Shown here piece after piece: positions 16,912 to 51,512 of a stretch of DNA of 64,000 nt. This DNA comes from Thuidium tamariscinum (taxonomy: Eukaryota; Streptophyta; Bryopsida; Hypnales; Thuidiaceae), in the NCBI GenBank assembly GCA_947034885.2, contig OX344749.2, positions 40,205,682 through 40,269,681 of the forward strand, read 5' to 3'. The position numbers and the translations under genes are program-made. The notes beneath the pieces were generated by a model. The model was not told the DNA's origin. It saw nothing but the letters and a program-made list of their open reading frames with translations, and searched no databases. The first letter of the stretch is position 1; each line of letters starts with the position of its first letter.

Positions 16912-16926
16912 CAGGGTTGTCATAAC
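16912..16926 (+). repeat. Outer element left terminal inverted repeat
   Basis: CAGGGTTGTCATAAC. It matches the inverted right end (51498-51512) at 14 of 15 positions, with the first 13 perfect. Confidence 0.93.
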
Positions 16927-17206
16927 GGACGAGTCAGGGTCACCGGACGTCCCGGACGGACGTGTCCGGACGGACCGGACGGCTCCATTTTTCAAAGTAG
17001 TGGGACTTTTTTGGGTTGACACGTCAGCTTAGAAAACGAGATCCAGGGCGCGGACTTCATCGTGTCACCGTCAGGGCGCGGGCGCGTATAGGTAGGGCGC
17101 GGACTTCACCGTCAGCGTCAGGGTGCGGACTCGAACAAGTAGGGCGCAGACTTCTGCGTGTACGTCAGGGCGCGGACGCGTATAGGTAGGGCGCGGACCT
17201 CAACAT
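16926..17206. repeat. Outer element left subterminal repeats
   Basis: First comes a palindrome-rich block with repeated CCGGACGTCCCGGACGGACG-type sequence (16929-16985). It is followed by several AGGGCGCGGACTT-type motifs in forward orientation (17044-17206). The same motif types occur inverted at the right end (51196-51332 and 51430-51500). This is the usual layout of transposase-binding subterminal repeats. Confidence 0.85.
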
Positions 17207-18111
17207 AAGGGATGACTTCACCAAAAAAAAATCATGGTAAGAAACTTATTTTTTAGCCCTTCGTAGGGTGTCAAAATTGGTAATTGTCAAAAGTTTCAAA
17301 GAACTACACCTGTTGAGAGATTTCAAATATCTTCTTCACCAAACCTTTTTTTACCTTGAAATGGTTTGAAAACATATTAAGAACATAGAGATTATTCCAT
17401 GACAAAAATTTCACGGCAAAAAAACCAAGACTCAATCCTTACTCCTTAAAAAGGTGTCAAAGTTGAAAGTAGTGAAATGTTTCTCACTACTACCCATCTT
17501 GGTAGATTTTGAATAACTTTTCTTTCCTAAATCTTTTGGCCTTGAAATTTGTCATACATATAATTAACTTCAAGGTTATGCTGTGGAAAAAATTTTGTGG
17601 TTAAATACTATTTTTTGAGCTCACGGGAGGCTTTCAAAATTGGCCATACCAAAAAAATTCTCACTACAAATTTGAAAAAGACTTTTTCTTTATTGGTACC
17701 CCATTGTACAAAATAAAATAGCCACATCACAAACCTTGAAATTAAATTCAACTATCAAACCCAATTCATCATTGAAGTCAAAGTGCCTCTCATATTAAAT
17801 AGAATTAGCCTACAAAATATATTACATGATTGCACTCACCAATGTTTCCAACATGCACGTCAAAATGTCAAATACAAAAACATTATAGACATATTAGTCG
17901 GCTTCAATCTTTATGATAACCAAAAGTATTTATAAAATTCATGCATTGCAATTTGCAAAGTACAATAACAATACAATGAATCTATACTTCCTAAATATGC
18001 CCACTTTCTCATCGGTTATCTAAGCCATCCTTTGGCTTCTCGTCCATCTTTCTTTTAATTGCTACAATTATATTCAACTCTTAAAGACACGAGATCTACC
18101 ATTGGTGCAAC
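17207..18111. other. Outer element noncoding DNA past the transposase 3' end
   Basis: AT-rich. No gene seen. It presumably contains the 3' untranslated region of the minus-strand transposase. Confidence 0.45.
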
Positions 18112-20540
18112 TCAGTTATTGAAACGACTCGACCTACGAACTTCTTGGGCACTAGGATCCACTACATTAGCATCTCGAACAACAACATCATCATCCTGTG
18201 GTGCCTCATCGCAGTTTGGATCATCCTCGTCATTGGCATCTTCGTTGCTGTCATATTCATCTTCTGCTTCACCACTATCTGTGGTCCAATGTCCCTCAAT
18301 CTCTGAGTTTTCATTTCGAAGCTCTACAATAGTTTGACCTTGACTACGTTTGCGCTTGAACCTCTTATGTCGCAGTGCGTTGGGGTCTTCTGCATCAGAA
18401 TTTATAGTGGGCCCACTTGAAACTCGAGGAACAACAAATGCCGGGGTTGACCTACTAGGTCCTGGTACGTATGTATCCAAGAACGGTTCTACCACCCTAT
18501 TTGAGTCTCTTGCCCCTATTCCAAGGAGTGGACGATGAGTAGGCCTTGACGATGATGCTTCTCCAATATGTGGACCTTCTCTTCCTCCACGGCCTCCAAT
18601 CCCTCCTCGGCCTCCAACCCTTCCACGGCCTCCCGTCCTTCCACGGCCTCCCATCCTTCCACGACCTTGTTGATATTGACCCACTTCATGATGAATGGAG
18701 GGCCGAGGTGCCATAGGTGGTCTACCACCAACAGTACCACGAGAAATGTTTTGAGGAGTCATATCAACATTTCTCATAGAGCCTAACCCTTCTTCAAAAG
18801 GTCTTTGGATGGCATTGGAAGTTGCTGGTGAAGATGGGTCTAGGGAATGTGGTGCTTGGCTAGTTTGGTCAGAACCAACTGGAGTGGGTTCACGCGCAAG
18901 GTCTTCTGGTGCATCAATAAATGCAAAAACATCATTGTAGTCTACATGCTCTGGATCAAAACGCCTTCTCACATTACTTGCCGATTGATTCCTTCCAATG
19001 GGGCGAGCCATTCTTGCATTTCTAACGTTTCTGTCATGGTGTCGTTCAACAACAATATTGCTACGAACTGATGCTCCCATTCTTGTAGGCCCTGTATTGC
19101 CATCTTGATTGTGAGAAGATCCTCCACAATTTGGATTTGCAATCCTCCCCATATTTCCGCCACCATTTCCATTTCCATTTCCACCACCATTTCCATTTCC
19201 GCCGCGATTTTCATTTTCACCGCCACTTCCATTATTGCTTCCATTTCCATTTCCGCCGCCATTTCCTGGAGGGAGGTCGTCATCATTGTCGTTGTTGTTA
19301 TGGGAGATGCCATCATCCACGTCATCGTCATTTGGATTGGCGGCCTCTGAAGAAGATGACAAAGCTTGGACTTCTGCGACCCCTTCATTTTGAGGAGGAG
19401 GAGGTGAAGGACTGCGACGAGGATTAGGTACCCAAGGACCCCAACGACCACCAACGGGTTCTTCCTCTCCATCGTCAGCATCTCCATAGTAGTTTCTCGC
19501 TTCCTCGAGGTGATCGGCACCTCGCCTCCAAAGATCTGGGTTCGCCGGATACTCTTGAGGTGCTTCATTGGCTTCCACACCAACCTCTTCTTCTTCCTCT
19601 GCTTGCATTGCGTCAAATTCCCGATTGCGTTCATTCAAAGGGATCGGACCAAGGGCATCTGGATCGGAATCCTCCGAGTACATATTTGCATCATACCAAC
19701 GAACTGGATCGGCTCCTGGTCTTTCCTGAAGTACACGGCTATTAGTATAAATATATACCAATGACTCTGCCTTCGCGGGGGCTAATCGATTTCGGACCCT
19801 ATTGTGAACAAAGGAATACATACTCCAATTCCTTTCACAAGAGCTGGCCGAACACGTGAGGGATAGAATACGCATGGCAATTTTTGAAAGAGCCCGATCT
19901 CCAACCCTATGCCACCATTGGTGGGGAAGCATTTGTGTCACACGGATGTTGGGTGTCTCAGCTGCACTGTACGGTCCACTACCCTCCTCAAATTGAGTTA
20001 ATTCCGCCAACACATCATCAAAAGTGACACCCACTACATCTTCCATTTTGTGGATGACTCTGTACAATGCACGTAGCGCAGTTCCATCTACCCTGAGCGC
20101 CACGTTATCCAAGAGGTATGGATTCAAAAGGGCCGCGGCATAGTGCGTATCTTCAAAAATCATGTCCCATCTTTCATTGAAAGATCTCTCCAAAGTGACT
20201 GCTATGTCATCTCGTAAGCTAAAAGGTGGTTCTCTCAAAGAATACACGTGTCCTCGCAAGTTGTGCATCACGAGCCACGCCCGACCCATGGCTGGTTCTC
20301 GTCCATCAAACACACGCAAAGCCTTCAATACGTCTTCAGTCATGTACACGTAATTCACACATCGTTGCCAAAAGGCCACATCTTCAATGGTTCTTCTGAC
20401 ATTACGTGAAGCGGTAGCTGCCTGTGGTCCATTCTGTTCGTTTCGTAGGGTATCATAATAATTTATAACACGGGGGTGGTTATTCAACCGCTCCAAGACT
20501 CCTCTGAGTTTGACCACTCGCTGTAACATGAGGAAATTAC
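18112..20540 (-). pseudogene. Outer hAT transposase, 3' part (interrupted by inner element)
   Basis: This is the C-terminal two thirds of the outer element's transposase, cut off from its 5' part (37374-38541) by the inner element. It resumes at CNFLMLQRVV, directly continuing SETRFA of the 5' part. It contains the hAT C-terminal dimerisation region with SASSCERNWSMYSFVH and LVYIYTNSR (including the catalytic-type Glu) and a WWHRVGDRALSKIA stretch. A long acidic, Gly/Asn-rich and RGR-rich tail follows. Open all the way to its stop at 18112. The two parts join exactly in frame: 1168 + 2429 nt = 1199 codons including the stop. So the break is purely the insertion, with no other decay seen. Confidence 0.92.
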
Positions 20541-20548
20541 AAGCAAAG
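20541..20548. repeat. Target-site duplication of inner element, left copy
   Basis: AAGCAAAG, identical to 37374-37381. Confidence 0.93.
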
Positions 20549-20559
20549 CAGGGTTGTCT

Positions 20560-21195
20560 ATCCTGACGTGACGTGGGCTTTTCCCGTCGGGATGTCATGA
20601 CGCGGCAGGACGCGTCAGAGGCCGTCCCGAATGCTGACGGCGTCGTCGACAGCGCGGATGAAGTCCGTCGACAACGCGCAGACGGCCTGTCGGCCGCCTC
20701 GACGACTGGCCGTCGCGTGGACGGACAGAGCGTCCGCGGCTTTAGGGTTTAGGCGCGACGGCCAGGCCGTCGCCTCGACAGTTTTCTGTTCAGCGGACGG
20801 TCACGGCGTCCAGAGTTCGTCCACGCAGCGGGGACGGCCAGAGCGTCCGCGGCTTGTGCACTTCGACGGGACGGCCAGGTCATCGCCTCGACAGTTTTCC
20901 GTTCAGCGGACGGTCACGGCGTCCAGAGTCCGTCCACGTAGCGGGGACAGCCAGAGCGTCCGCGGCTTGTGCACTTCGACGGGACGGCCAGGCCATCGCC
21001 TCGACAGTTTTCCGTTCAGCGGACGGTCACGGCGTCCAGAGTCCGTCCACGCTGCGGGGACGGCCAGGCCGTCGTCTGGACAGCGGGACATCCGCTGGAC
21101 GGCCAGAGCGTCTGCGGGGACGGCCACGACGTCCCGTCCGCGGCTGTCCACAGTGCGCCAACGGACAGGCCGTCGACTGGACGACTGCTGCCAGG
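20560..21195. repeat. Inner element left subterminal GC-rich repeats
   Basis: Dense GACGG/CCGTC and GGCCAGGCCGTCG motifs. They include a tandem array of about three copies of a 113-bp unit; a CGCCTCGACAG landmark falls at 20771, 20884 and 20997. The array lies between the transposon end and the transposase gene, so it may serve both as terminus and as promoter region. Confidence 0.85.
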
Positions 21196-21340
21196 CCTTC
21201 ACAGTATATAGCACAAGCCGTGTATTTGAAGGTCACTTTTCCTTGCTGATCTCTGCTCTTATGACCTGGTTGGCACACAGCCATTGCACTAGAGTGAAGT
21301 CCAAGAAGAGTGTGTGGGAGGAACACTTGCTGTGAAAGCA

Positions 21341-21398
21341 GTAAGTGTTATTTCCACATCACATCCAAACTAAATACTAACCTGTTTTGTTTGTGCAG
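21341..21398 (+). other. Probable leader intron of the inner transposase gene
   Basis: A 58-bp interval with GTAAGT donor, TACTAAC branch-like motif at about 21375 and TTGTGCAG acceptor, just before the first ATG of the transposase. The frame upstream of the splice meets a stop at 21295 with no ATG, so the intron lies in the 5' untranslated leader. Confidence 0.6.
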
Positions 21399-21424
21399 TT
21401 TCAAGTGAAGAACCAGTGGGAGCA

Positions 21425-24400
21425 ATGGGAGGGGGGAGGACACAATGGGAACCCTGGTACAGGCTACAAGAGGATGGGAAAGTGGAATGCAAGTTCTGCA
21501 AAACGAAGATTAGTTACCGCAAGGATCGCTTGCTTTTCCACTTGGGTTATAGACGAAATGACACCCTCCCCGGAGTGAGAATGTGCAACAAGGCCAGTGC
21601 AGCAGTGAAGGCTATGTTTTTCAATTGTAGGGGGAATGTTCCTACGGTCTCCGAAGACGAAGAGGAACATGATGTGGAAGTGACATCACCGTCATCGAAT
21701 CCAACGAGGGTGGTACGTGATCAAGAATTACCCAATGCTTCAATCTCAATTAGTGGAGGGGGAGGAAATACTTTGGGCCAAAATTCTCAAGTTCGATCAT
21801 CAGAGGCGCCTGTCCCTTCTTCGACCCATAGTCGACCGCTGAGGCAATTATCCGTACAAGAAGGGATGGACACATCCAAAAAGCAAGTACTAGACAAGAA
21901 GTGGGCAAAGTTTTTCTACGAAGCAAATATCCCATTCAATGTGGTGAGACACCCCGCTTTTGTGGATGCCGTGAAATCAACCTCCGAGTCCAGAGTTCTT
22001 TACAAACCTCCACCTTACAATGCCATACGTACGAAGCTCATGACATCAACAAAGGAGGAAGTGGCTGCACTGGTAGCGGAGAAGACAAAGGGGCCTATCC
22101 ACAAGTACGGTGTCACTATATGTTCTGACGGATGGGACAATGTCAGCCATCGGCCATTGATCAATGTAATGTTGTCGTGCACGAGTGGAGAAGTATTTTT
22201 GGGATCGGTGGACACTACAGGCGAAAGCAAAGACGCTGTTTATGTGGCTAATCGCATGATCGATTACATTGACGCGGTGGGGGGACAGAATGTGGTGCAA
22301 GTTTGTACGGACAATGCGCCAAACATGCGTTTGGCTGGTACTCAAATTACTCGCGAATTCCCTCACCTATATTTCCAAGGTTGTTCCGCGCATGCACTTG
22401 ACCTTCTACTTGAAGATTGGGGCAAGCAACTTTGGGTGGTCAAAATGGTGAAGAAAGCAAAATCAATCGTGAAATTCATTCGCACGCATCACATGCCACT
22501 CGCCATTTTCCGACGACATTCTCCTAACCTCATGTTGAAGAATCCCATTGAGACACGTTTTGCGACCATGTTCCTCATGATCGAGCGTTTGGTCGAGGTC
22601 AAGGAAGCCGTGGAATCTACAGTCCATGATCCGCAGTGGAACGAATATGTGAGGTCCTCGAACGCTGCAATACACAATAAGGCAGAAAAGGTTCGACGTA
22701 GGGTTCGAAAGGACGAGTTCTGGAGGAGGTGTCTCAACTTTGTGCATATGGTAGAGCCTGTGTTGGTGGCTCTTCGAGAGTTTGATGGAAAACATCCGGT
22801 CATGGGCAAAGCATGGATCGTGATGAAGAAGCTAGAAAAGCATGTTTTGGCTTTGAGGAATCGACCATTTTCATTGGAGGCAAATTATGCGGACCGTGTT
22901 GAATACGCGTTTTACGAACGATGGGATTTGATGAAGACTGATTTGCACTACGCAGCTGCCCTGCTCAATCCATTCCTCCTTGATGAAATTATACTAATAG
23001 ACGATAACGAGGCAAAGGAGGCCATTCTTAGAGTACTACGCAAATTGGCAGTTGGAGGGTTGGGATATGCAGCCGCTTTGTTTGAGTACCAATCCTTTCG
23101 AGACCGCCGAGGCATGTTCGCTGGACTTCCCGATGTGAATACTTTGAATTTGGAGCCGCATGAATGGTGGGATCTTCTCGGAGCCGCTGCTCATACGCTT
23201 GCACCTATTGCAAGAAGGATCCTCGTACAAGTATGTTCCGCATCATCATGTGAACGCAATTGGAGCATGTATTCATTTGTCCACAGCAAGTCTCACAACA
23301 GATTGACATCTGAGCGCGCGGAGGAATTGGTTTACATTTATACCAATTCGAGGACTCTCAGGGAAAGGGGTGCGGCGGATGCAGCACGATGGTACACTGA
23401 GAACATGTTGTCCGAAGATTCCATGACAACCGAATCAGATGGCTTGGATCGTGGTTCGGTTATGTCAGATGCTAACAACGATGACTCAGACGACAGTTCC
23501 AATGGCGATGATGATCCACCATTTCGGCCTTTGGGTGAAAGGCAAGAAAGGGGTCCCCTAATTGACGAGTCCGTATTTGACTTTGATGGCGCAGATAATG
23601 ATGGAAATGACCACGGGGGAGATGAGGATGGAAATGACAACGGGGGAAATGATGGTAGTCCGTCATGGATGCCACATACATCGATTGCGGGGTCAAGTGG
23701 TGGAAATCAAAACGAAGGGGTTGAAGCCCCACCTTCGCCGGTTATAGGGCCGATTGAAGAAGAAATGCGTACCCGGAGACATGAACATGTCGTTGTGGTA
23801 GAAAGACAAGGCGAAGATGAGGTCGTTGCCACAGATCCCCCAGTGGCGCGGAACACTCGTAGCCACAGATCCCCCATTGGTGTCGAGATAGACTTTCGCA
23901 CATTGCGTCGAGACACGAGCGGCGTGCGACCACAAGCGCCTAGCTTGGATGATCCACCCGTCCAAATTTCAGCACGGCCTTCATCTTCTAGAGTCCGCCC
24001 CAACCAAGAAACTCCATCAGTCGGTACACGATTGGCCGGTCTCTTCCCAACTCTAAATATGACCGAGCGAAGGAATGCACCTCCATCCTCAGAACAACCC
24101 GTTGCACCGCCTACACGCACTACTAATCGACGCCCGCGGCCACGTGAAGAAAGCCCTACCAACGAACGTGTGAGTAGAAGAACACGTAGAAGGCTAAGAA
24201 GGGAAGAAGCGGCGAGTATACCATTTCTCCGCGAAGGTCTTCTCCCTGGACCGACGGGGCCCAGTGTGGATACCGCTGGAGATGGAGTAGGAGGGCGAAC
24301 AATCCGCAAATTGGCTTCTATAGTAGGTGAAGGCTCAGACAGCCCTGACAACTCACCAAGCGAAGTCGGTAGGGCAACGTCCAATCATGATGATGAATCC

Positions 24401-24559
24401 ATGGGTCCTAGTATAGGTGAAGATGGTGAAGTTCCGGGAGATAGTGATTATAGAGGGACTCGTAGAGGTCCTCCACCTGCACCTCAAGACAATCAAGCAA
24501 CCACGCGAGAGGCTGCTGCAAGGAGCATGGCTCCTAATCGTACACGTGCAAGACGTTGA
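21425..24559 (+). CDS. hAT-family transposase of the inner element
   Basis: Intact 1044-residue protein (first ATG at 21425) that would cut and paste the inner element. A BED-like zinc finger (Cys22, Cys25, His39 and a following Cys in VRMCNK) should bind transposon DNA. The DUF659/RNase H-like region carries catalytic-type aspartates in ICSDGWD (Asp235) and VCTDNAPN (Asp296), then CSAHALDLLLEDW. The hAT C-terminal dimerisation region follows, with SASSCERNWS (Glu610) and LVYIYTNSR. The last 400 residues are low-complexity: acidic Asp/Asn/Gly-rich, then Arg-rich (RRTRRRLRREE). Typical plant hAT transposases are about 650-800 residues, so this tail is unusual. The outer element's transposase has the same domain order and a comparable tail. 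The gene lies 0.9 kb from the left end, behind the GC-rich repeats. Confidence 0.94.
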   Translation: MGGGRTQWEPWYRLQEDGKVECKFCKTKISYRKDRLLFHLGYRRNDTLPGVRMCNKASAAVKAMFFNCRGNVPTVSEDEEEHDVEVTSPSSNPTRVVRDQELPNASISISGGGGNTLGQNSQVRSSEAPVPSSTHSRPLRQLSVQEGMDTSKKQVLDKKWAKFFYEANIPFNVVRHPAFVDAVKSTSESRVLYKPPPYNAIRTKLMTSTKEEVAALVAEKTKGPIHKYGVTICSDGWDNVSHRPLINVMLSCTSGEVFLGSVDTTGESKDAVYVANRMIDYIDAVGGQNVVQVCTDNAPNMRLAGTQITREFPHLYFQGCSAHALDLLLEDWGKQLWVVKMVKKAKSIVKFIRTHHMPLAIFRRHSPNLMLKNPIETRFATMFLMIERLVEVKEAVESTVHDPQWNEYVRSSNAAIHNKAEKVRRRVRKDEFWRRCLNFVHMVEPVLVALREFDGKHPVMGKAWIVMKKLEKHVLALRNRPFSLEANYADRVEYAFYERWDLMKTDLHYAAALLNPFLLDEIILIDDNEAKEAILRVLRKLAVGGLGYAAALFEYQSFRDRRGMFAGLPDVNTLNLEPHEWWDLLGAAAHTLAPIARRILVQVCSASSCERNWSMYSFVHSKSHNRLTSERAEELVYIYTNSRTLRERGAADAARWYTENMLSEDSMTTESDGLDRGSVMSDANNDDSDDSSNGDDDPPFRPLGERQERGPLIDESVFDFDGADNDGNDHGGDEDGNDNGGNDGSPSWMPHTSIAGSSGGNQNEGVEAPPSPVIGPIEEEMRTRRHEHVVVVERQGEDEVVATDPPVARNTRSHRSPIGVEIDFRTLRRDTSGVRPQAPSLDDPPVQISARPSSSRVRPNQETPSVGTRLAGLFPTLNMTERRNAPPSSEQPVAPPTRTTNRRPRPREESPTNERVSRRTRRRLRREEAASIPFLREGLLPGPTGPSVDTAGDGVGGRTIRKLASIVGEGSDSPDNSPSEVGRATSNHDDESMGPSIGEDGEVPGDSDYRGTRRGPPPAPQDNQATTREAAARSMAPNRTRARR

Positions 24560-24940
24560 GAGCATCTAGGGAAAAAAATGTCTCCATGTCATCTTATGTA
24601 ATATTGTGTAAGGCTGAATACCTTGCATGTGAAATTCGGCATTAATTATAAATACTACACATGCTTCCTGTGCTCATGTAGGGCGCATGGGTAGAAATTT
24701 TTTATCTTCACATGTCACAAATTCTACAACGCAACAACGGATCCATTTATGCATATTTGTCCCAAGAAATGGAAATATTTGCTTTGTCGTTTGCCATGTG
24801 TTCTATACTCTTAAATTTGGATTCATTCTTCGAAGTTGGTTACCTACATGCTTGGATATTTTGAGATCATTATGAATTTTGCCATGTACAAGAAAACAAA
24901 TGTAATCTGGAATATGGAGAAAATGATTGAAAGTACTGAA
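24560..24940. other. 3' flank of the inner transposase gene
   Basis: AT-rich. No gene recognised; likely 3' untranslated region and spacer. Confidence 0.4.
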
Positions 24941-24944
24941 TTAA

Positions 24945-25862
24945 CCCCTAAAGGACCAAGAGTCCCCTCGGGGAACTTTAAGAATTAGGGCAAGTACTTG
25001 TGACTTCAATTTTTAATGAATTTTATTGAAATTTTCACATAAGATAAAAAAACTGATTAGCTCCGTGGAAATATTCATTTTTTTTCAATTGGTGACCGGG
25101 AGCAAAAGTTATGCCATCATAAACATTATTTTTATGTTGCCGGGCAGAAAAAAAATCTACAGAAACTTCAAAATTAAAAAAATAATTTTTTTTTCTTATA
25201 GATTATATTTTTGTCTACAAGTAAAGCTTTGATTCATTCCATTTGGATTAGTAATGTGAAAGTTATGAACAATCTTGTTTTTCGGGCAATCTAAGCATCT
25301 TCTTGAAAAAATAACTTCTAGGATTCATTTGTGAATGCAATTTCCACAATTTAAAAAAAAAAATTGTTGGACAAGGTTGATTTTGTTTTCTAGAACAATC
25401 TCACCATTGGGATTATTGTGTTTCAATTCCATCTATGAGATATTTGCAATTTAGTTTTTCTTTCAATCTTGGACCTACATCTACTTGACAATTTTTTAAA
25501 GAATGACAAAAAGTCTTTATTTTGTGAATTTTTTTTCCTAAGCTCTTAGCTCAATTTCTCAATAAAAAAATTTTAATTCAAGGTCTGTAGTGCAAAAAGA
25601 TTACATAAATGGAGGACAAAGTCATTTGAAGTTGCAAACTAGTGTTTAAGAAAACTTTGTTTTCCAACTTTGAATTCTCATATCTTCCTATCTATACGGT
25701 CAAACTTCATGAAATTTCACCACATCATCTTAGTTAAGTAAAGTTCAAGATCCTATGGTTAGATTCTAAAAATTTAGTTTTTTTGTTTTTCATGGATGAA
25801 TGGAACAAAAATGGCAGTTTTGAGTGGTTTTGGGTTGAAAAACGGCCGTGGTCCTTTAGGGG
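24945..25862. mobile_element. TTAA-flanked non-autonomous element inside the inner transposon
   Basis: It starts CCCCTAAAGGACCA (24945) and ends with the exact reverse complement TGGTCCTTTAGGGG (25862). TTAA is present on both sides (24941-24944 and 25863-25866). A TTAA target and CCC-starting ends are piggyBac-like. About 918 bp, no coding capacity. Part of its interior (about 25190-25600) matches dispersed copies at 15050-15450 and, inverted, at 53760-54130. A TAA- or TTA-target superfamily cannot be excluded. Confidence 0.7.
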
Positions 25863-26078
25863 TTAACATGGCATTCAGTCCAAAATTTACGAAGGGACAG
25901 AACTACTCACAAATCCACTCACCGGAATCATACTCGAATGGAACAAAAAGATTTACATATATTTATTTCAAAAAGGAGTTAGTACAAAATTCAGTGACGC
26001 AAAGTTCGTGGACTATACTGTGGTAAAAGCAAGTACTAAGGTACGTCTACGATTACATTGCCACTAAAATACTATTCT

Positions 26079-27740
26079 CTAATCTTCATTCCTTGCTTGT
26101 TCTTGTAGAAGTACTTGCTCCTTGCGGGCCTCGCGGTAGCAATCAACGGGTGGAGTCCAAAATAAGGGGGCGCCACTAATTCGTCCCACGGCGTACGTTA
26201 CCGTGCGTCGTTGTAGTGGGTCCTCTTTGCACAATTCGCCCAATGTGGCTTGAAATGTACCAAACGCTGTATGGTCGGGAAGCATTTCCGTATTTTCGCG
26301 GTCTTTCTTCCATATCTTCTCCGCAAGCTTCCCAACAGCATATCCGTCTGTATGTATACTAACACACGGTGCCCCATCTGCACGAGTGGGGGATACCGAA
26401 GTGCCCGCCTCTCCAGGAACATACATCAATTCAGGGGCCACCCACCAACGTTTCTGACGTGTAGCCCGCATTTGGCTTGCACATTGAAACTGGTACAAAG
26501 AATGGGTTTCTTCATTGATACGACTAGCCATTCCCCAATCACATAGCCCAATCCACACTGTTCGCCCATCATCATTCGGAAAATGCAACATGATGTTTTC
26601 TGGCGTGATGTCGTTGTGGAGCACCGAAGATTGTTGCACCGCATCCACGATGCAAATTAACGCCCATGCAAGCTCGGTGCGGTTTCTACGATAAGCCAAG
26701 AGTCTTTTGGCTTCTTGCATCGTCTGTGGAGTTGCATGGTAGGCAAGCTCCCCGATCTCAGCATAATCTCGGTTTTTTTGGTCCAATGCGAACATGGCTC
26801 CCAATGTTCCTCCATTCCACCATTGAGAATAACACTCCATGGTCATGTCATTTATAGCAAAAAATTTTATGACCCCTGGATGATTACATGGACAAACCAA
26901 AGCCTCGATGGACAACTTCTCCCGCGACTTCTTCAATTGATCCACATATAGGGCTGTCTTGCCCGCCAATTCCATCATGGGGGGAATGTGCCTTGAATTT
27001 TGGAGGCTCACTTTACGCACCCTCCCGTGCCCCCCTTGTTTGTTGTGGCCTGACAATGGAACCACCACCACTCCTCGTTCAAGAAATACCACTCCTCCCG
27101 CACCCGCTTGGCCTAGGGACAAGCTTTGGCTCTGCTGAAACCATGGGGCAGAGCGGATATTGCTGGAAGACAGCGCTCGCATTGCGTCATGCCACCAATA
27201 CACCTTTTTGTGCAACAAATGCAATGCTTGTTGCTTCGGCGCTACATCTCGTTTGAAGCCCTTTACCGATGCGGCGACTTGGGCGATGTTGAAAACACAA
27301 GTTTGCACTTGTTCGTCAAGCCAACGACGGAAGTGTTCCTTTGTGCGATCTTCAAGCCACTCATCCTCGCCCATTGTTGTCCAAAACATGTGGGTGAATT
27401 TTTTTTTAATTGTCTCCACCCCTTGCAATCCACGCGAGACGTAGGTCGTATTCAATTGAGCAATCGTATATTGCTCCAAAAAATCCAATGCCACTTCCTG
27501 CACTTTCCTGGTCGCAGCCTTCCTTGGCCAGTCGTTTGTATTCGTAGCCTTGTGCCTCCGCCTGCTCTTTTTTTTCTTGGCCCCCGAAGATTCTCCTCCA
27601 GCCGCACCACCGACCCCTTCTCCGGCCAATACTGCCTCTGATACGCAGTCAATGGATTCTGGAGACTGCTCACCAACAGGATCTCCGATGCCTGAAAACC
27701 ACTCATCAACCTTGCGCTTCGACGCACCTCGCCCGTCCAT
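26079..27740 (-). CDS. Atypical protein kinase of the inner element
   Basis: Intact single-exon gene for 553 residues, starting MDGRGASKRKVDEW. Lys-rich N-terminal segment (KKKKSRRRHK, about residues 54-63), then a helical region conserved with the outer kinase (TKEHFRRWLDEQVQ). The kinase domain has a glycine-rich GGHGRVRKV, Lys261 (LAGKT), a helix-C-type Glu before CNHPGVIKF, HND at 375-377 with ENIM, DWG at 401-403 and VAPEL near 435. The catalytic Lys, Asp and Asn are present, but HRD is HND and DFG is DWG. It could therefore be an active non-RD kinase or a divergent pseudokinase. Cargo of the inner transposon, divergent from the RING gene. Substrate unknown; transposase, RING partner and host chromatin factors are only guesses. 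Confidence 0.85.
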   Translation of the reverse strand: MDGRGASKRKVDEWFSGIGDPVGEQSPESIDCVSEAVLAGEGVGGAAGGESSGAKKKKSRRRHKATNTNDWPRKAATRKVQEVALDFLEQYTIAQLNTTYVSRGLQGVETIKKKFTHMFWTTMGEDEWLEDRTKEHFRRWLDEQVQTCVFNIAQVAASVKGFKRDVAPKQQALHLLHKKVYWWHDAMRALSSSNIRSAPWFQQSQSLSLGQAGAGGVVFLERGVVVVPLSGHNKQGGHGRVRKVSLQNSRHIPPMMELAGKTALYVDQLKKSREKLSIEALVCPCNHPGVIKFFAINDMTMECYSQWWNGGTLGAMFALDQKNRDYAEIGELAYHATPQTMQEAKRLLAYRRNRTELAWALICIVDAVQQSSVLHNDITPENIMLHFPNDDGRTVWIGLCDWGMASRINEETHSLYQFQCASQMRATRQKRWWVAPELMYVPGEAGTSVSPTRADGAPCVSIHTDGYAVGKLAEKIWKKDRENTEMLPDHTAFGTFQATLGELCKEDPLQRRTVTYAVGRISGAPLFWTPPVDCYREARKEQVLLQEQARNED

Positions 27741-27954
27741 TCTGAAAAAAAATATGCGATGGTAAAACCAAGGAATTAGGGTTCAGTACTCACAAATGTG
27801 AAAACTATCCCCCCTTCCTCAGCCGAGCCTCCTCGCAAGCACCCGTGCTCCCAAGCAAGGACTGCAACCAATCCAGGGCAAGAGAGCACCGTCAGAGCAG
27901 GAGAGACTCGTGCAGAGTGGGGGACCTGGCCCACCTTATATAGTTGTTGGCGAG

Positions 27955-40850: not shown

Positions 40851-41493
40851 AACTTCCAAGTTCAGTTTCTTAGATTCACGTAGAAGGTAGTCATTTCTAA
40901 ATAAAAGGTACAAGATATTCTTCTTTTGAATGAGAACTTTACATTATTTTGGATTCACATGAAAAGATTCACTTTCTTGAATAATTGATAGAATGCATTT
41001 TTTTAAATGAACAAATGAGTTCCATTTCTTCAAATCCATTATTCATAAGCAAAGATTCTTTTTTTCTGCATAATAACTACAAGGGTTATTGACTTATTGT
41101 GGGGAAATGGAAAATTATAAGTTATATTTTGTTCTTAATGTGAAAGGATCCATTTTTATAAATACTTGTTACAATGGATTCTTCCTTAATAAAACGTACA
41201 ACTTAAATTGAAGTAGAAAGGTTGTAAATGGAATCCACAATTAGAAATAATTGCTACAATAAAATCTTTTTTACATGAACTTAGAAGACATATTTTTCAG
41301 ATGCATGACATAGGTTCTTTTCCGAAGGTTTAGAATACATTGATTTGTTTTTTAATTCAACCCTAAAACCATCTGAAATGAAGTCAAACAATCCAAACTC
41401 AAACCCTAAACCCTAATACTCCAAACCCTAAACCCTACACTCCTAAAACCTTTGAACCAAAGAAGCCAAGGAGTTGGAGGGACGCCAGGTCAG
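40851..41493. other. Outer element spacer with telomere-like motifs
   Basis: AT-rich. Just before the next GC-rich array, about 41365-41445, there are repeated AAACCCTAA/CCTAAACCCTA motifs, similar to the telomere-type repeats in the inner element. Confidence 0.5.
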
Positions 41494-43125
41494 GGCGCGG
41501 ACTTCAAGGCGTGGATTCCAACACAGGGCGCGGATTCCAGCGCAGGGCGCGGACTCCAGGGTGCGGACCATTCTTGGTGCGCAAACGTGCATGCAAAGAA
41601 GAAGAGGTTGACCTCCCGCATGGGATCCCTCCTTGCTCCTATTTATTGCTCTTGGAAGATGGTGTCCCTCCTTTTCATGGAAACCGGGAACCATTAAATT
41701 TAGTCATGCCGTCTTCTACATTATGGAGAGACACGAACGCTTTCTCTCACTAATGTTTTCGTTACATTGTCTGTGTCATGGCGCGGACTTAATGTCAGGG
41801 TGCGGACTTGAAGTCAGGGCGCGGACTCCAGGGCGCGGACTTGAAGTCAGGGCGCGGACTCCAGGGCGCGGACTTGAAGTCAGGGCACGGATACAGCACA
41901 AGAGAGGACTTTGAAATGCGATCGGGCATGAGAACCAGGGAAGCCAAGGAGTCGGAGGCTTGAACTTCACTGCATTGGCGCTACTCAGGGCGTGGACGTC
42001 AGGGCGCGGACTCCTGCGTAGGGCGCGGACTCCTGGACAAGGCGCGGATTCCTGCGCAGGGCGCAGACTCCTGGACAGGGCGCGGACGCCAGGGCATACA
42101 TCACAAGAGAGGACTTTGAAATGCGATCGGGCATGAGAACCAGGAAGCCAAGGAGTTGGAGGCTTGCATTGGCGCTACTCAGGGCGTGGACGTCAGGTGA
42201 GGGCGCGGACGTCAAGGCGCGGACTCCTGGACAGGGCGCGGACGCCAGGGCATACATCACAAGAGAGGACTTTGAAATGCGATCGGGCATGAGAACCGGG
42301 AAGCCAAGGAGTTGGAGGCTTGCATTGGCGCTACTCAGGGCGTGGACGTCAGGTGAGGGCGCGGACGTCAAGGCGCGGACTCCTGTACAGGGCGCGGACT
42401 CCTGGACAAGGCGCGGACTCCAGGGCGCGGACGCCAGGGCATACAGCACAAGAGAGGACTTTGAAATGCGATCGGGCATGAGAACCGGGAAGCCAAGGAG
42501 TTGGAGGCTTGCATTGGCGCTACTCAGGGCGTGGACGTCAGGTGAGGGCGCGGACGTCAGGGCGCGGACTCCTGGACAGGGCGCGGACTCCTGGACAAGG
42601 CGCGGACTCCAGGGCGCGGACGCCAGGGCATACAGCACAAGAGAGGACTTTGAAATGCGATCGGGCATGAGAACCGGGAAGCCAAGGAGTTGGAGGCTTG
42701 CATTGGCGCTACTCAGGGCGTGGACGTCAGGTGAGGGCGCGGACGTCAGGGCGCGGACTCCTGGACAGGGCGCGGACTCCTGGGCGCGGACCATTCTTGG
42801 TGCGCAAACGTGCATGCACTGCAAATGAGGTTGACTTCCCGCATGGGATCCCTCCTTGCTCCTATTTATTGATCTTACAAGATTGTGTCCTTCCTTTCAT
42901 GGAAACCAGGAACCATTAAATTCAGTCATGCCTTCTTTTAGATTCTTTATAGTGATGGAGAGACAAGAAAGCTTTCTCTCACCAATGTTTTCGTGACATT
43001 GGCTATGTCAGGGCGTGGACGTAGGGCGCGGACTTGAGGGCGGACAATTCTAATACGTGGCGCGGACTTGATGTCAGGGCGCGGACGCCAGGGCACGGAC
43101 TTGAAGTCAGGGCGCGGACGCCAGG
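41494..43125. repeat. Large GGGCGCGGAC array with 189-bp higher-order units
   Basis: Dense GGGCGCGGACTCC/GGGCGCGGACGCC motifs. They are embedded in a higher-order unit containing GAGGACTTTGAAATGCGATC, GGGAAGCCAAGGAGTTGGAG and GCATTGGCGCTACTCAGG. The ATGCGATCGG landmark falls at 41916, 42121, 42277, 42466 and 42655, giving spacings of 205, 156, 189 and 189 bp. A diverged copy is near 43158. Flanking segments (41567-41730 and 42783-42960) are themselves near duplicates. Long open frames on both strands are produced by the repeat and are not called as genes. Confidence 0.88.
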
Positions 43126-46005: not shown

Positions 46006-48291
46006 TTAGTCTATGTCCATTGCACTGCCACTTGGGCCAGCCTCGTTGTCATGTGTCCCTGCAATGACGGGAAGGTCTTCGTCCGAGCCTAAACGAAGTC
46101 TACGAACTGCGGATCGAGTTCTCCGCGCTGGTCCATCTTCCTCCAATACAGCCCTCATGATCTGTGATTGTTTGAGGCTCTCAAGACATTGGCGAGTTCG
46201 AGGGCTATGCTGTTCAAGCAAGAAATCCATCCCTTCATGTCGAAAGGTTTCTCGCCACTCTGACTCCTCTAGTTGAACTAGTTCAGCAGGGTTAGGCATG
46301 TCAATGTCGTCCACCATACGAATCCCATCGTCGTTAGTGATACGAACTCCATCCCTATTCCAAAACCACTGTTTAGGATGAGGTCCAAATTGAAAGTTCT
46401 CAAAAACCTCGTCCCAATGCCCATTGAAGCACTGATAGAAGAAATTCCGTCGTCCTTGGCTATACTTGTCCTTCATTGGAATCAAGTGTTGACACACCTC
46501 CACTATTTGAGCTGGATTTTTTTCCCAACCCCATTCGGCAGAAAGGTTTTGTTTATCCAAGGAATGGAGCTTCAATTTCCAACTCCACACCAAGTCAGTT
46601 CCCCACTTCTGAGCATGATCAGGGGCATTTTCAGCATTATATTCCCAATGTGGTGGCATGTATGAAAGTAATCCAAATAAATCATACAATCGCTCATGGA
46701 AAGGAGCCTTGCACAAGGAACACTGTCGACGAACAACCATCAAGCTAATCAAACAAAATGGATGGTACAAGTGTTCGCACGTGCCTAGGTGCATTCCACC
46801 TTCAGGGCCAAATGGATTTAGACAAATGGGACACGTAGTACCATCATACACGAAGCTTGAAGGATTTGGCCACAATAATAGTGGATTGCCGTTCTGGTCG
46901 AGGGAAGAGCCAACTTCATTCTTGAAATCCCAATGGTGTTTGGACCAATCGATGATTGTTGTTCCACCACCAATGTCTTTGGTCACCATTTCATCCATGT
47001 TGAAATGATCATCCACAAGGGCCCACGATGTCAACCCAAAAACCCTCTCTTGATTGTGTGCGCCATAATTGTTGTCGATTTTTTGGAATTCTGACGCCAT
47101 TTGCTGAGTCCTGTCAACTGAAAAGACGCATGCCATCTTCCACTGGTAATATTGCTCCATCAACGCTTTCAATTGCTCTTTCAATATCAAATTGTTTGCA
47201 AGTGCGTCCGTCAATTGAGTGCTCTGGTCAATTGGCATTGCTTGACCTGCATTTGTGGGTAATTCTCCAAATGACAGTGCATCATCTTGAGTACCCTGTG
47301 TTGCACCAACTTCAACATGTTGCACTGGAATTTCATCATGGATTGGAGGCCCTTCCGCTCCCCCTCGTGGATCCTGACCATCATTGGCCAATGTGGCTGC
47401 TTCAAGAGCATGCTGCAGCGCCTCTATCTGACGTTGTTGTTCACTTATAATATTGTTCTTCTCTTTGAGTTCATCCCTCAATTTAGCAACATCTTCATAC
47501 AAAGAATGCAGATGCGCATTGCTCTCTTCCACTTCAATCCTCAAACTCTGAATTCGATCTGCAGCTGCTGTAACATCAACAATTCCTATTGTTGGTTCGT
47601 CAGTAGCTGGCACCTGTCCCTCCACAACATTTTCTTGTACACCCTCTTGAGTTGCACGCTCAGCCCTCCTCTTTTTAAGCCGTAGATTTGTTCTATAGCT
47701 GAGTGCATGTGGCACATGAGATCCATCCAAGTCGTTATCTGTAGCAAAGTCCTCAGTGTCATGTAGTGGTGGTGCTTCAACTTGTGTCATTGTTTTACCC
47801 AGTCCACCTTGCGGGTACCTTTTTACCCCCCTTGGAATGAATCCATTTGCTGGTGTTGGAATGTTGACTTTCTCCCCCATTGTCTTCAAAGTTGACCAGT
47901 CCATTCTCTTGTTCAACTTCAATTCCGCATGTACCCCTCGTGCAATGAAGAGATGCACTTCATTGCGTTTGACAATAGGGACATCATACAACGCCTGGTA
48001 CACTTCGATGCACCGATTTGTAAACTCCTCATCAATGCAATGTTTTAAATTTGCCTTGTGGAAGCGTCGGTGATAGTTGTGTCGCTCTTCTGGGAAGACC
48101 TTGTCAATGTGGCACCACTCGATGTAATTGGCACAGGTTTCGTAAGTCCATGGGTCAGGCACGTCTTCCCACCCTTTGAATGCAAGCTTTGCGGGATTAC
48201 GTAAAACATGCAACCGCTTACGATGTTTGTTTCCTCCTCGTAGTCGGGTCTTATCTCGTTCCTCCTTCCTTGGTCTTGTCGGTGTAGCCAT
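46006..48291 (-). CDS. RING-H2 coiled-coil protein of the outer element
   Basis: Intact 761-residue protein starting MATPTRPRKEERDK at an ATG at 48291. The order matches the inner homologue: N-terminal PWTYETCANYIEWCHI...FPEERHN domain of unknown function, coiled-coil-like stretch (about residues 240-310, LRIEVEESNAHLHSLYEDV), conserved VFGLTSWALVDDHF, then RING-H2 (Cys487 to Cys527, CPIC...CEHLYHPFC...CSLC) and YMPPHWEYN and NGHWDEVFEN. It ends with a basic region near the C-terminus (RRTRSAVRRLRL). A probable E3 ubiquitin ligase by family rule; target unknown. Transcribed divergently from the adjacent kinase, from a 0.69 kb region packed with GGGCGCGGAC motifs. Confidence 0.87.
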   Translation of the reverse strand: MATPTRPRKEERDKTRLRGGNKHRKRLHVLRNPAKLAFKGWEDVPDPWTYETCANYIEWCHIDKVFPEERHNYHRRFHKANLKHCIDEEFTNRCIEVYQALYDVPIVKRNEVHLFIARGVHAELKLNKRMDWSTLKTMGEKVNIPTPANGFIPRGVKRYPQGGLGKTMTQVEAPPLHDTEDFATDNDLDGSHVPHALSYRTNLRLKKRRAERATQEGVQENVVEGQVPATDEPTIGIVDVTAAADRIQSLRIEVEESNAHLHSLYEDVAKLRDELKEKNNIISEQQRQIEALQHALEAATLANDGQDPRGGAEGPPIHDEIPVQHVEVGATQGTQDDALSFGELPTNAGQAMPIDQSTQLTDALANNLILKEQLKALMEQYYQWKMACVFSVDRTQQMASEFQKIDNNYGAHNQERVFGLTSWALVDDHFNMDEMVTKDIGGGTTIIDWSKHHWDFKNEVGSSLDQNGNPLLLWPNPSSFVYDGTTCPICLNPFGPEGGMHLGTCEHLYHPFCLISLMVVRRQCSLCKAPFHERLYDLFGLLSYMPPHWEYNAENAPDHAQKWGTDLVWSWKLKLHSLDKQNLSAEWGWEKNPAQIVEVCQHLIPMKDKYSQGRRNFFYQCFNGHWDEVFENFQFGPHPKQWFWNRDGVRITNDDGIRMVDDIDMPNPAELVQLEESEWRETFRHEGMDFLLEQHSPRTRQCLESLKQSQIMRAVLEEDGPARRTRSAVRRLRLGSDEDLPVIAGTHDNEAGPSGSAMDID

Positions 48292-48393: not shown

Positions 48394-48780
48394 GGGCGGG
48401 GACAAGTGAGGCGGGGACGGGTTTATATAGGGGCAGGCGGGGGACGTCAGGGCGCGGATGCCATCGCTGTCAGGGCGGGGACTCCATCGATGTCAGGGCG
48501 CGGACGCCTCCGTCAGGGCGGGGACTCCTTCGTTGTTGGGGCGCGGACGCCTCCGTCAGGGCGGGGACTCCTTCGTTGTCGGGGCGCGGACGCCTTCGTC
48601 AGGGCGGGGACTCCTTCGTTGTCAGGGCGCGGACGCCTTCGTCAGGGCGGGGACTCCTTCGTTGTCAGGGCGCGGACGTCTCCGTCAAGGCGGGGACGCG
48701 TGTGTCAGGGCGGGGACTCCACGTGTTGGGGCGGGAACGCGATGGGGATGGGGCGGGGACGTGCGGGGGGGGACTATATA
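48394..48780. promoter_or_regulatory. Bidirectional promoter region built of GGGCGCGGAC/GGGCGGGGAC repeats
   Basis: Repeats alternate GTCAGGGCGCGGACGCC and GTCAGGGCGGGGACTCCTT. They lie between the start codons of the RING gene (48291, -) and kinase gene (48979, +). TATATAAAG at about 48775 suits the kinase direction, and TATATAAACC on the minus strand near 48425 suits the RING direction. Open frames through it are artefacts. Confidence 0.75.
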
Positions 48781-48978: not shown

Positions 48979-50559
48979 ATGGCAGGTGAAGGGAGTGGAT
49001 CGGTGGACAAACGTCCTATGTTTGTAGACTTGGATGATATCGGTGAGACGGTAATTCCATGTACAAACACGTTGATGGCCTCAGGTTCATCAAATCCTTC
49101 CTCATCAGGCCAAAAAAAACGCAAGAAAGAACAAAATCCCCAAATACTTGGACATGAATTCATAGTCGAGGGGAGAAAAATAGCTGTGGTGTTCTACACT
49201 CGTCGAAGTACAAATATGTTGAACAGGGAGTATGTGTCGCTCAACGAAGAAGGGTACCACAAACTGACGAGGGACCTGCGAAGGGAGTTGGAGTCAAAGT
49301 TTGAAGAATCAGAAGAATTCAACAACTTCTCAGATTATTGGTTGCACCAAGAGTGGCTGGATAAACAAGTGGTCGCCTTGACAACCAATATAGTGTGTAA
49401 TTGGTGTTATCACACGGGTAAGAAAGAAGATGGTAGCGACTGGGACACGGAGGACAGAGAGATGGTTACAAAAGTGAAGGAGATTCAAACGTTTGCTCAA
49501 CGATATTCTTCTTCACGTAGAAAAAAGCAAGCACCATGGAAAGTGACAATTGAAGAAGCGATAACGGCTCATTGCGTGAGTGGAACATTCAAGTGGCTAG
49601 GAAGTTCCGTGAAAGTCATCCCCATGCCGGAACAAATTGCGATTGGGTCGTATTGGACCGTGAGGAAGGTGATCTTTACGAAACTTGAGAGCATTCCTAG
49701 TTGGATATTTTTTGCTGGGAAGAGCTTGAAGACTAAGAATAAAAAGGAGAAACGCCAAGCAATCATCAATGAGGCAGGAGGGTGTCCAGTGAATCATCCT
49801 GGCATCATTCGAATTGCGTACCTCCACCCTAAAACAATGGAAGGCTACACACTATGGTGGAATGGAGGATCTCTAATTTCTTTCTTGTCCAAATGCAATG
49901 CGAAAGTGAGCGAAGCACTGGATTTGAATGAGATTGAGAATGACATTTCTACGGGGCTAACGAAAGAGGAACTTTCATGGGTTGCAACGTATCGGAGAAA
50001 TCGAGTGAAATTGGCATTGTCATTACTTGTCACTGTGGGGAAATGCCATGATGCGCAGTACATGCACAACGACATATCTCCATCCAATGTTTTGCTCCAT
50101 TTTGATCCTTGGGAACGAAATAGGGTGTACATAGGGATATGTGATTGGGGACTTTCTAGCCGAGTTGTGGAGAAGGAACCATCAAGGTATGGCTATCCTA
50201 GTATGGAGATCCTTGCGAAGGAGAAAAAAAAGCGAAGGTTTGCAGCCCCAGAATTGTTTTATGTATACGGAGAGCAGGGTTCATCAAACTCCATTGAGGC
50301 CATGCAAAAAACGCATTTGTATTCTATGGCAGCTGATGCATATGCAGTGGGATGGATAGCTTCTGCAATTTGGAAAGAAGAGTGGGACCCTAAATACTTC
50401 ACAACAAAAAACCCAGAGCAGTATCAGAATTTCATGATCAAATTGGGAAGCCTCGTAAAAGAAGATGTGCGTGAAAGGGCAACAGTGCCAGATGTTCTAG
50501 AGAAATTGAAGAAGGCCCCCCACTGTTGGACGATGCCGGATTGTTGTTATCGTACATAG
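48979..50559 (+). CDS. Atypical protein kinase of the outer element
   Basis: Intact 526-residue single-exon gene, starting MAGEGSGSVDKRPMF. Homologue of the inner element's kinase: conserved WLDKQVV helix before the kinase domain, TVRKVIF, Lys248 (FFAGKS), INEAGGCPVNHPGIIR, LWWNGGSL, the YRRNRVKLALSLL helix, HND at 363-365 with SNVL, DWG at 389-391 and AAPEL near 423. The catalytic Lys, Asp and Asn are kept; HRD is HND and DFG is DWG. Because the same changes occur in both elements, they are family traits, not random decay. Role in the element unknown. Lies 0.95 kb from the right end and is divergent to the RING gene. Confidence 0.85.
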   Translation: MAGEGSGSVDKRPMFVDLDDIGETVIPCTNTLMASGSSNPSSSGQKKRKKEQNPQILGHEFIVEGRKIAVVFYTRRSTNMLNREYVSLNEEGYHKLTRDLRRELESKFEESEEFNNFSDYWLHQEWLDKQVVALTTNIVCNWCYHTGKKEDGSDWDTEDREMVTKVKEIQTFAQRYSSSRRKKQAPWKVTIEEAITAHCVSGTFKWLGSSVKVIPMPEQIAIGSYWTVRKVIFTKLESIPSWIFFAGKSLKTKNKKEKRQAIINEAGGCPVNHPGIIRIAYLHPKTMEGYTLWWNGGSLISFLSKCNAKVSEALDLNEIENDISTGLTKEELSWVATYRRNRVKLALSLLVTVGKCHDAQYMHNDISPSNVLLHFDPWERNRVYIGICDWGLSSRVVEKEPSRYGYPSMEILAKEKKKRRFAAPELFYVYGEQGSSNSIEAMQKTHLYSMAADAYAVGWIASAIWKEEWDPKYFTTKNPEQYQNFMIKLGSLVKEDVRERATVPDVLEKLKKAPHCWTMPDCCYRT

Positions 50560-51195
50560 TATTTTGTTTTTAATATTTTTTGTAGTTTAGCATATATTTC
50601 AGGCATAGAAGAAAATCATCCTCGTAGAGGAGCCTATGTACCTACTTGGCAATTGCCAAACAGCTTGAATATATATTAAATCGGATGTGTAATTGTGTAC
50701 CATACTCAAAATCCCAAAATATATTAATATGCCCTTTCATTGGTCTTTCCTCATGGCATTTTTTATGACTTCTATGAATTGATGATAAAACGTAAATGAA
50801 AACTATGGATGCAATAGTTTGGTATAAAAATGCATACACTTAATTTTTTCCACTATGCCTATGTTTTAGGAGTCACATATGCAGAAGTGATTTGGATATG
50901 GAAATGGTTTGCATGTTATAGTGAGGTAATTTAACACCTCCTAAAAATATAAAATGGTGTAGTGATTTGGATATGAAAATGGTTTGGATGTTAGAATGAT
51001 GTAATTTCACACCTAAAAAAAATGGAATGGTGGAGTAATTTGGATATGAAAATGGTTTGGGTATTAGACTAATTAGAGTGATATGATGTAACATTAAGAA
51101 AAATATAAAGTGTTGGAGTGACTAGGAAAGTGGGAATATGGAATATAAAAAGGAAATATGTAGAAGCATATTAATTAATTTTAAGGTGGTCCCAA
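50560..51195. other. 3' flank of outer kinase gene with short tandem repeat
   Basis: About 50890-51110 holds roughly three copies of a 70-bp AT-rich unit (GTGATTTGGATATGAAAATGG...ATGTAATTTCACACC). No gene seen. Confidence 0.55.
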
Positions 51196-51500
51196 ATCCT
51201 GTCCGCGCCCTGACGATCGCGTCCGCGCCTTGATGATCCCATCCGCGCCCTGACGACCGCGTCCCCGCCCTGACGATCCCGTCCGCGCCCTGACGACCGC
51301 GTCCCCGCCCTGACGATCCCGTCCGCGCCCTGCATGTTCGGGAATCCACATGGCAACCACGTGGCAGCCACATGGCAGCCACGTGGCCTATTTTTCCATT
51401 ATCAAAAAGTCAACTATGTGTTGACTCTACCGGACGGGCGAGAGCTCTATCGGACGTCCCGGACGGACGGACGGACGGGTGAACCGGACGTCCGCCTGGT
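51196..51500. repeat. Outer element right subterminal repeats
   Basis: Six to seven GTCCGCGCCCTGACGATC-type motifs (51196-51332) are the inverse of the GGGCGCGGAC motif at the left end. Then a GGACGTCCCGGACGGACG palindrome-rich block (51430-51500) mirrors 16929-16985. Confidence 0.87.
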
Positions 51501-51512
51501 ATGACAACCCTG
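51498..51512 (-). repeat. Outer element right terminal inverted repeat
   Basis: GGTATGACAACCCTG, the inverse of the left end, with 13 perfect terminal bases. Confidence 0.93.

Follow-up and report, generated by a model that had tools for sequence, protein, structure and literature searches.

Two nested hAT elements

The window, that is, the whole 64,000-nucleotide stretch of Thuidium tamariscinum DNA analysed here, contains two nested hAT elements, with element A (20549-37373) lying inside element B (16912-51512). The insertion point of A falls within B's transposase gene, splitting it. The ends of both elements are CAGGGTTG, and the target duplications of both are 8 bp long and perfect; B measures 17,768 bp once the nested A and one duplication copy are subtracted. 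According to the duplication ATAATAGT, the span singled out in the preliminary description corresponds exactly to the borders of the outer element B. The features are as follows, with the strand given where there is one.

16904..16911: target site duplication of B, left (ATAATAGT)
16912..51512, minus strand: element B, hAT; TIR CAGGGTTGTCATA at both ends and 8-bp duplication ATAATAGT
18112..20548, minus strand: B transposase, C-terminal half (hAT dimerisation), cut by A (Pfam, A/B comparison, ORF)
20541..20548: target site duplication of A, left (AAGCAAAG)
20549..37373, plus strand: element A, hAT, 16,825 bp; TIR CAGGGTTG and 8-bp duplication AAGCAAAG
21425..24559, plus strand: A transposase (ORF), 1044 aa from its ATG; contains a DUF659 and a hAT dimerisation domain
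26079..27740, minus strand: kinase of A, 553 aa; PF00069 35.6 bits, cut-off 31.7
32768..35131, plus strand: RING-H2 protein of A, 787 aa; C3H2C3 pattern; PF13639 26.9 bits, under the cut-off
37374..37381: target site duplication of A, right (AAGCAAAG)
37374..38541, minus strand: B transposase, N-terminal half (DUF659), cut by A (Pfam, A/B comparison, ORF)
46006..48291, minus strand: RING-H2 protein of B, 761 aa; C3H2C3 pattern; PF13639 24.8 bits, below cut-off
48979..50559, plus strand: kinase of B, 526 aa; PF00069 37.4 bits; divergently oriented relative to RING
51513..51520: target site duplication of B, right (ATAATAGT)

A transposase, a kinase and a RING-H2 protein in each element

Both elements carry the set of transposase, RING and kinase genes that the preliminary description assigned to them, except that in the window an unbroken transposase is found only in A. 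The collinearity it reported holds for the protein sequences over most of their length but not for the gene order, which is transposase (forward), kinase (reverse) and RING (forward) in A, and kinase (reverse), RING (forward) and transposase (forward) in B. As it also stated, kinase and RING are intact in both elements: all four frames are open, and the A and B proteins are about 30% identical (kinases, 30%, E 8e-62; RING proteins, 29%, E 3e-80). The A transposase scores 124.5 bits against PF04937 and 32.7 bits against PF05699; the latter, the hAT dimerisation domain, is above the cut-off in A, in the C-terminal half of B and in a further family, C, described below.

The kinases retain the motifs AGK, HND, CDWG/CDFG and APE in A, B, C and the fourth family, E, so that the catalytic Lys, HxD, DxG and APE are all present. 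Among nine aligned metagenome relatives, P0003 alone has HNN in place of HND. With these motifs kept and the Pfam Pkinase cut-off passed, the earlier label of an atypical kinase applies only in a mild sense. The predicted structure is weak in the N-lobe and aligns to its PDB matches at low TM-scores. A viral origin was considered and rejected, as the kinase profile had no relative in IMG/VR and the fold matches among viral proteins had low TM-scores and were to kinases of a generic kind; a bacterial or archaeal origin was likewise set aside, no relative being found in a search of one genome per species.

The RING protein is a likely ubiquitin ligase of the RING-H2 type, as predicted from its sequence. 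The C3H2C3 zinc-binding pattern is present in A, B, C and E and in 4/4 metagenome relatives, and a six-sequence RING profile matched RNF24 at 6.5e-06. The Pfam RING cut-off of 27.3 bits was missed by A, B and C (PF13639; 26.9, 24.8 and 21.0 bits, respectively), and a structure model of the RING was poor (mean pLDDT 46.7) and had no match in a PDB search. The N-terminal domain of the RING protein is also found in two additional family C proteins.

Families and linkage in the genome

Genome searches revealed at least four families among the matches listed, A, B, C and E, with element sizes of 16.8, 17.8, 36.9 and 29.6 kb, respectively. Short terminal inverted repeats starting with CAGGG are found in all four; A, B and C have complete ends flanked by duplications. 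Eight further copies of A all have both ends, and seven of them an identical 8-bp duplication; an 8-bp duplication also flanks one C copy, as it does A and B in the window. In one E copy, matching ends are present and a target site duplication was sought and not found. The arrangement of kinase, RING and transposase is constant inside each family and different in all four families. Many copies of the elements coexist in the genome.

Among the matches listed for this one genome, the kinase, RING and transposase genes of the same family adjoin far above chance. The clustering near DUF659/hAT transposases that the preliminary description had proposed to look for was evident: 120 of the 150 kinase-core matches listed have a listed transposase no more than 30 kb away, compared with a mean of 5.4 and a maximum of 13 in 1000 trials of random placement. 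Both own-family partners were found for 37/49 C kinases and 62/86 E kinases among the matches listed, where kinase B is also paired with RING B in 52/62 cases and RING A with kinase A in 48/57. Kinases with neither partner among the matches listed amount to 2/49 in C, 6/86 in E and 10/78 in A, and 58/150 DUF659 matches are without a kinase or RING partner among those first listed. The scored matches listed contain no host-gene population away from elements, the distribution, mainly as ordinary host genes, that the preliminary description had named as speaking against its claim. A captured host gene was rejected as the origin of the pair, there being no host-only member among the same matches.

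Selection on the kinase and RING genes

Between families C and E, both genes evolve under purifying selection, with dN/dS values well under 1 (kinase, 0.138 [0.098-0.187]; RING, 0.216 [0.167-0.267]). The value near 1 that the preliminary description had given as its second refuting outcome was therefore not seen in this comparison. Recent RING copies give values of 0.5-1.6 on few changes, too few to carry weight. The DUF659 regions of the same two families are mostly 71-76% identical.

Family-specific motif arrays

The elements further contain short GC-rich motifs, one for A, one for B and one common to C and E, with 34 (A), 44 (B) and 37 (C) copies in the elements read. None of these copies lies in coding DNA in A, B or C, and each motif has 0 copies in the elements of the other motif groups and 0 in 29.4 kb of window flank. 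At all 14 gene starts examined, at least three copies are found within 1 kb upstream; the clusters lie 204-426 bp or more upstream of these starts and also occur near the element ends. The kinase, RING and transposase genes have their family's motif upstream in common. A motif scan placed the following arrays in the window.

17046..17189: B motif array (GGGCGCGGAC), left end
20620..21168: A motif array (GACGGCC), left end and transposase upstream region
27965..28202: A motif array with three copies, kinase upstream region
31754..32473: A motif array, RING upstream region
36900..37206: A motif array, right end
38817..43110: B motif arrays, B transposase upstream region
48496..48668: B motif array, intergenic stretch separating the divergent RING and kinase
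51201..51321: B motif array, right end

These observations bear on whether the kinase and RING are captured host genes, copied along with no function for the element. Protein kinase and RING folds are common in hosts, and gene capture by plant transposons occurs, as described in PMC13317346. We nevertheless disfavour this reading as very improbable, given one gene set in four families and four arrangements, the C/E purifying selection, the motifs matched to each family and the lack of a host homologue among the scored matches listed. The original proposal that the pair belongs to the transposon rather than being captured debris is supported by the recurrence beside family-matched genes in four families, the selection and the motif held in common with the transposase gene.

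Possible roles of the kinase and RING pair

Together, the recurrence of the gene set, the C/E selection and the motif arrays make the kinase and RING look like integral genes of the element that are probably under one element-encoded regulator. Since the gene set is shared and the family motif lies upstream of the gene starts examined, the pair likely serves the transposon itself. As to how, we lean, tentatively and with somewhat less than even confidence, towards giant hAT transposons with a predicted phosphorylation-ubiquitylation module that would aid escape from host silencing and transposition. The motif would be read by an element-encoded DNA-binding protein acting on ends and genes together, for which the transposase, or the N-terminal domain common to the RING protein and the two further family C proteins, are candidates. 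The kinase would mark nuclear targets, and the RING protein would ubiquitylate the marked targets, of which silencing factors at the element are the likeliest. More doubtful is a full phospho-ubiquitin counter-defence circuit, in which a tag reader would bring kinase and RING ligase to disable silencing factors, and tag and reader would change together as families arise. The favoured reading has a precedent in VANDAL/VANC, where dense family-specific motifs are described as being read by the transposon's own anti-silencing protein (PMC5735166). It also draws on the linkage, the C/E selection, the motif arrays and the retained active-site and zinc-binding residues; against it stand the RING scores under the Pfam cut-off, the poor RING model, the weak N-lobe and low TM-scores of the kinase model, the DUF659 matches without a partner among those first listed and the dN/dS of recent RING copies.

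The main rival to counter-silencing is that the pair controls the transposase, with the kinase phosphorylating it and the RING protein limiting its amount. Because the Ac transposase is described as binding subterminal AAACGG repeats (PMC3260210), the present motif may simply be a transposase site, in which case all genes would be under transposase autoregulation. Such a role, which we consider possible but doubtful, fits the arrays at the ends and upstream of genes and a motif common to C and E, whose DUF659 regions are so similar; the many coexisting copies are not by themselves suggestive of tight limitation. Alternatively, the pair may be transposition accessories that assist unusually long elements in excision, repair or re-integration, for example through modification of the host's repair factors at the element ends. 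The element length of 17-37 kb and the recurrence of the RING N-terminal domain in family C speak for this, but Pfam searches found no known repair or integration domain, and we regard it as rather unlikely.

Comparison with known transposons

The usual picture of a hAT element such as Ac is that of a parasite with a single gene. The present elements resemble the hAT superfamily (Ac/Ds, DUF659-type) in their 8-bp duplications, CAGGG ends and DUF659 and hAT dimerisation domains, but differ in that conserved kinase and RING genes accompany the transposase. Ac likewise has subterminal repeats, but is given as 4.6 kb, compared with 17-37 kb here (PMC3260210). Our literature searches found no description of such giant kinase-RING hAT elements. 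They represent a hAT lineage with a shared multi-gene programme that includes two likely signalling enzymes, is kept at about 30% protein identity across families and is tied together by a motif shared upstream of its genes. This makes a DNA transposon's manipulation of the plant nucleus testable, and the predicted family-specific DNA addresses are supplied for binding assays.

Starships and Teratorn, giant transposons of eukaryotes, are similarly large and carry several genes; Starships are described as using a tyrosine recombinase and Teratorn as a piggyBac-like fusion, whereas the present elements have a hAT transposase. Pack-type and other gene-capturing plant elements also hold non-transposase protein genes between transposon ends, as described in PMC6431247. 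However, Pack-type elements carry varied gene fragments without constraint, whereas the genes here are open, form one set in four families and show dN/dS of 0.14 and 0.22.

The Arabidopsis VANDAL/VANC system, a MULE, shares dense family-specific motif arrays restricted to non-coding parts and an accessory gene retained with the transposase, according to the account in PMC5735166. It belongs to another superfamily, VANDAL being described as a non-TIR MULE (PMC13317346), while the present elements have TIRs and a hAT transposase; a kinase and a RING protein take the place of accessory proteins here, and their anti-silencing role is putative. If true, the counter-defence circuit would be the hAT counterpart of VANDAL/VANC, using signalling enzymes.

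Two nested elements share one gene set

The window holds two nested giant hAT elements, A and B, with A inserted into the transposase gene of B:

Window 16912-51512: element B; ends CAGGGTTGTCATA, duplication ATAATAGT
Window 20549-37373: element A; ends CAGGGTTG, duplication AAGCAAAG

Their lengths are 16,825 bp (A) and 17,768 bp (B, with A and one duplication copy subtracted). Both carry genes for three proteins, namely a kinase, a RING-H2 protein and a transposase of the DUF659/hAT type, and the remaining ORFs of at least 90 aa, judged by position, overlap those genes or lie in repeats. A pyrimidine-rich tandem array is found 3' of RING A (window 35492-36750), and a shorter array with inverted similarity to it lies between kinase A and RING A (window 29709-30113). 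On both sides of the nested elements lie the copies of a 3.4-kb direct repeat (window 1439-4785 and 56141-59529), which share 90% identity. On the minus strand, window 61072-62724 contains a 550-aa frame for a DEAD-box helicase that includes a DDX23-like domain and is probably a host gene or retrocopy.

At least four families in the genome

We searched the genome (363 Mb, 19 contigs), in which a chlorophyll a/b-binding protein gave 49 matches and a radial-spoke protein gene gave four exon matches in one place, which suggests a green plant with motile sperm, probably a moss. Of 634 candidate places for kinase A we scored 78; every one is 98-100% identical across 552-553 residues, and 51 have no stop. 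RING A had 1330 candidates; the 57 that were scored all show 98-100% identity, and 47 are stop-free. Among the matches listed, 48 of the 57 RING A genes had a kinase A within 25 kb, on the opposite strand every time, a DUF659 match lay near 62 of the 78 kinases, and 42 kinases had both partners. The window's strand arrangement recurs in 41 of these 42 complete sets, and all three frames are open, by our own criteria, in 15. In eight further A copies both terminal sequences are present, matching exactly in six and with 1-2 right-end mismatches in the other two, and seven show an identical 8-bp duplication, the exception being C1:42.81-42.83 Mb.

In family B, kinase and RING lie on opposite strands with a median gap of 645 bp, and such pairs take in 52 of the 62 kinase pieces listed and 51 of the 56 RING pieces. 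The link to the transposase is seen in the window copy and in 19 of the 62 kinase pieces, which lie near a listed DUF659 match.

A third family, C, accounted for 22 of the 84 matches listed for kinase B (32-33% identity) and, as pieces, for 6 of the 62 listed for RING B; a sister family, E, was found via the kinase core search:

C2:6851939-6888834: family C element, 36,896 bp; TIR CAGGGTTTTCT, duplication AGGCAGAC
C5:29714777-29744326: family E copy; ends matched, duplication not found

The C element was read at its two ends, between which lie matches to kinase, RING (one stop) and transposase. The E copy contains an open kinase of 551 aa, an open RING gene of 824 aa and a transposase match inside a 1134-aa frame. 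A family C copy on contig C9 encodes two more proteins (408 aa and 463 aa) in which the N-terminal domain of the RING protein recurs, at 42-47% identity to RING B and C and 36-37% to RING A. A domain scan of the 408-aa protein returned no RING match; in the 463-aa protein, sequence similarity ends after the N-terminal domain. Family C proteins with this domain and without a RING match lie at L010:7116-8615 and L017:1689-2915 (two sequence pieces), and because such proteins exist, the domain appears able to act alone.

A further kinase remnant, 29% identical to kinase A (C7:26593307-26594716), is paired with a RING N-domain remnant (C7:26597068-26597439); the pair (C7:26593307-26597439) adjoins a family B copy. 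Many diverged or stop-bearing kinase and RING matches lie on C11, the smallest chromosome-sized contig (17.5 Mb), which may be a sex chromosome or one that recombines little.

Linkage and gene order

Core-search matches (150 kinase, 150 transposase, 150/151 RING) were sorted by identity, with C at no less than 84% and E at 60-83%. Among the matches listed, own-family partners within 30 kb of C kinases comprised RING in 40 of 49, transposase in 44, both in 37 and neither in 2; for E kinases, the corresponding numbers were 72, 70, 62 and 6 of 86. Overall, 120 of the 150 listed kinase-core matches lay near a transposase, whereas random placement put 5.4 of them there on average and never more than 13. 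As counterevidence, 58 of 150 DUF659 matches had no partner among the listed A and B matches, a count that precedes the discovery of C and E.

In C, RING lies upstream on the same strand (40/40) and the transposase downstream on the same strand (42/44); in E, the transposase lies upstream on the opposite strand (70/70) and RING downstream on the opposite strand (71/72). The arrangements thus differ in A, B, C and E: one gene set in four arrangements.

Divergence and selection

Kinase identity is 29% for A-B, 32% for A-C and B-C, and 72% for C-E; RING identity is 32, 30, 41 and 71% for A-B, A-C, B-C and C-E. Silent sites are saturated in the A-B, A-C and B-C comparisons. By Nei-Gojobori, with intervals from 500 bootstraps, C versus E gave a dN/dS of 0.138 (0.098-0.187) for the kinase (526 codons, dN 0.175, dS 1.26, near saturation) and 0.216 (0.167-0.267) for RING (820 codons, dN 0.190, dS 0.88). 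Ratios of 0.19-0.55 for kinase B against five diverged relatives and 0.20-0.69 for RING B against three mix constraint and decay. Recent copies, with few changes each, gave 0.27-0.80 for kinases, 1.60, 1.20, 1.42, 0.72 and 0.50 for RING, and 0.28 for transposase C.

Features of the kinase and RING proteins

Kinases A, B, C and E retain AGK, HND...N, CD(W/F)G and APE. Close to the N-terminus they also carry basic stretches that, from their sequence, could be nuclear signals. The 50 PDB matches listed for a structure model of the kinase (mean pLDDT 63.6) are all protein kinases (best E 3.4e-06, TM-scores 0.2-0.5), and a 13-kinase profile matched the MAP kinase FUS3 (1.6e-07). Among 5.8 billion metagenomic proteins searched, we found 14 kinase relatives (7,995 scored candidates) and 4 RING relatives (7,996 scored), whose longest contigs span 1-15 kb. 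The C3H2C3 pattern is intact in RING A, B, C and E and in all four of these RING relatives.

Family-specific motif arrays

The enriched word differs between families: GACGGCC in A (34 copies), GGGCGCGGAC in B (44 copies) and GCGACCGC in both C (37 copies in 34.5 kb read) and E (29 copies in 20.9 kb read), each chosen from the very elements counted. No copy in A, B or C lies in coding DNA (27-43% of sequence), and in counts covering the elements and window flank, no word occurred in elements with a different word or in 29.4 kb of flank. All 14 gene starts read (three each in A, B and E, five in C; the E transposase start was not among them) have at least three copies in the 1 kb upstream, the closest of them 204-426 bp away; 16-31% of element positions would also qualify; the starts are not independent, and those of B RING and B kinase have one common cluster. 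The 1 kb downstream of 10 stops contained no copies except three at the B kinase, where the element ends.

End clusters are separate from gene starts at the right end of A, both ends of B and the left end of E, and common with an adjoining gene start at A left, C left and E right; two copies lie near the C right end. A nine-copy family C cluster with no recognised gene beside it (G000:C9:22589714-22590354) perhaps marks a missed gene or enhancer.

Integral genes and a possible role

On the linkage, selection and motif evidence, both kinase and RING appear to be integral genes of the elements, sharing one address system with the transposase and the ends. The likeliest task of the pair would be counter-silencing via phosphorylation and ubiquitylation, the main rival being that it controls the transposase instead.

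Searches of openly licensed papers listed no description of a giant hAT with kinase and RING. In the portions available, a plant hAT survey reports hAT to be absent from the moss Physcomitrella and does not mention 'kinase' (PMC6027215), and reviews of giant transposons (PMC6431247) and, from 2026, of gene capture (PMC13317346) mention neither 'hAT' nor 'kinase'. The closest published logic to the motif arrays is that of VANDAL/VANC, in which an element protein binds dense family-specific non-coding motif arrays and strips methylation (PMC5735166), together with that of the Ac transposase, which binds subterminal AAACGG repeats (PMC3260210).
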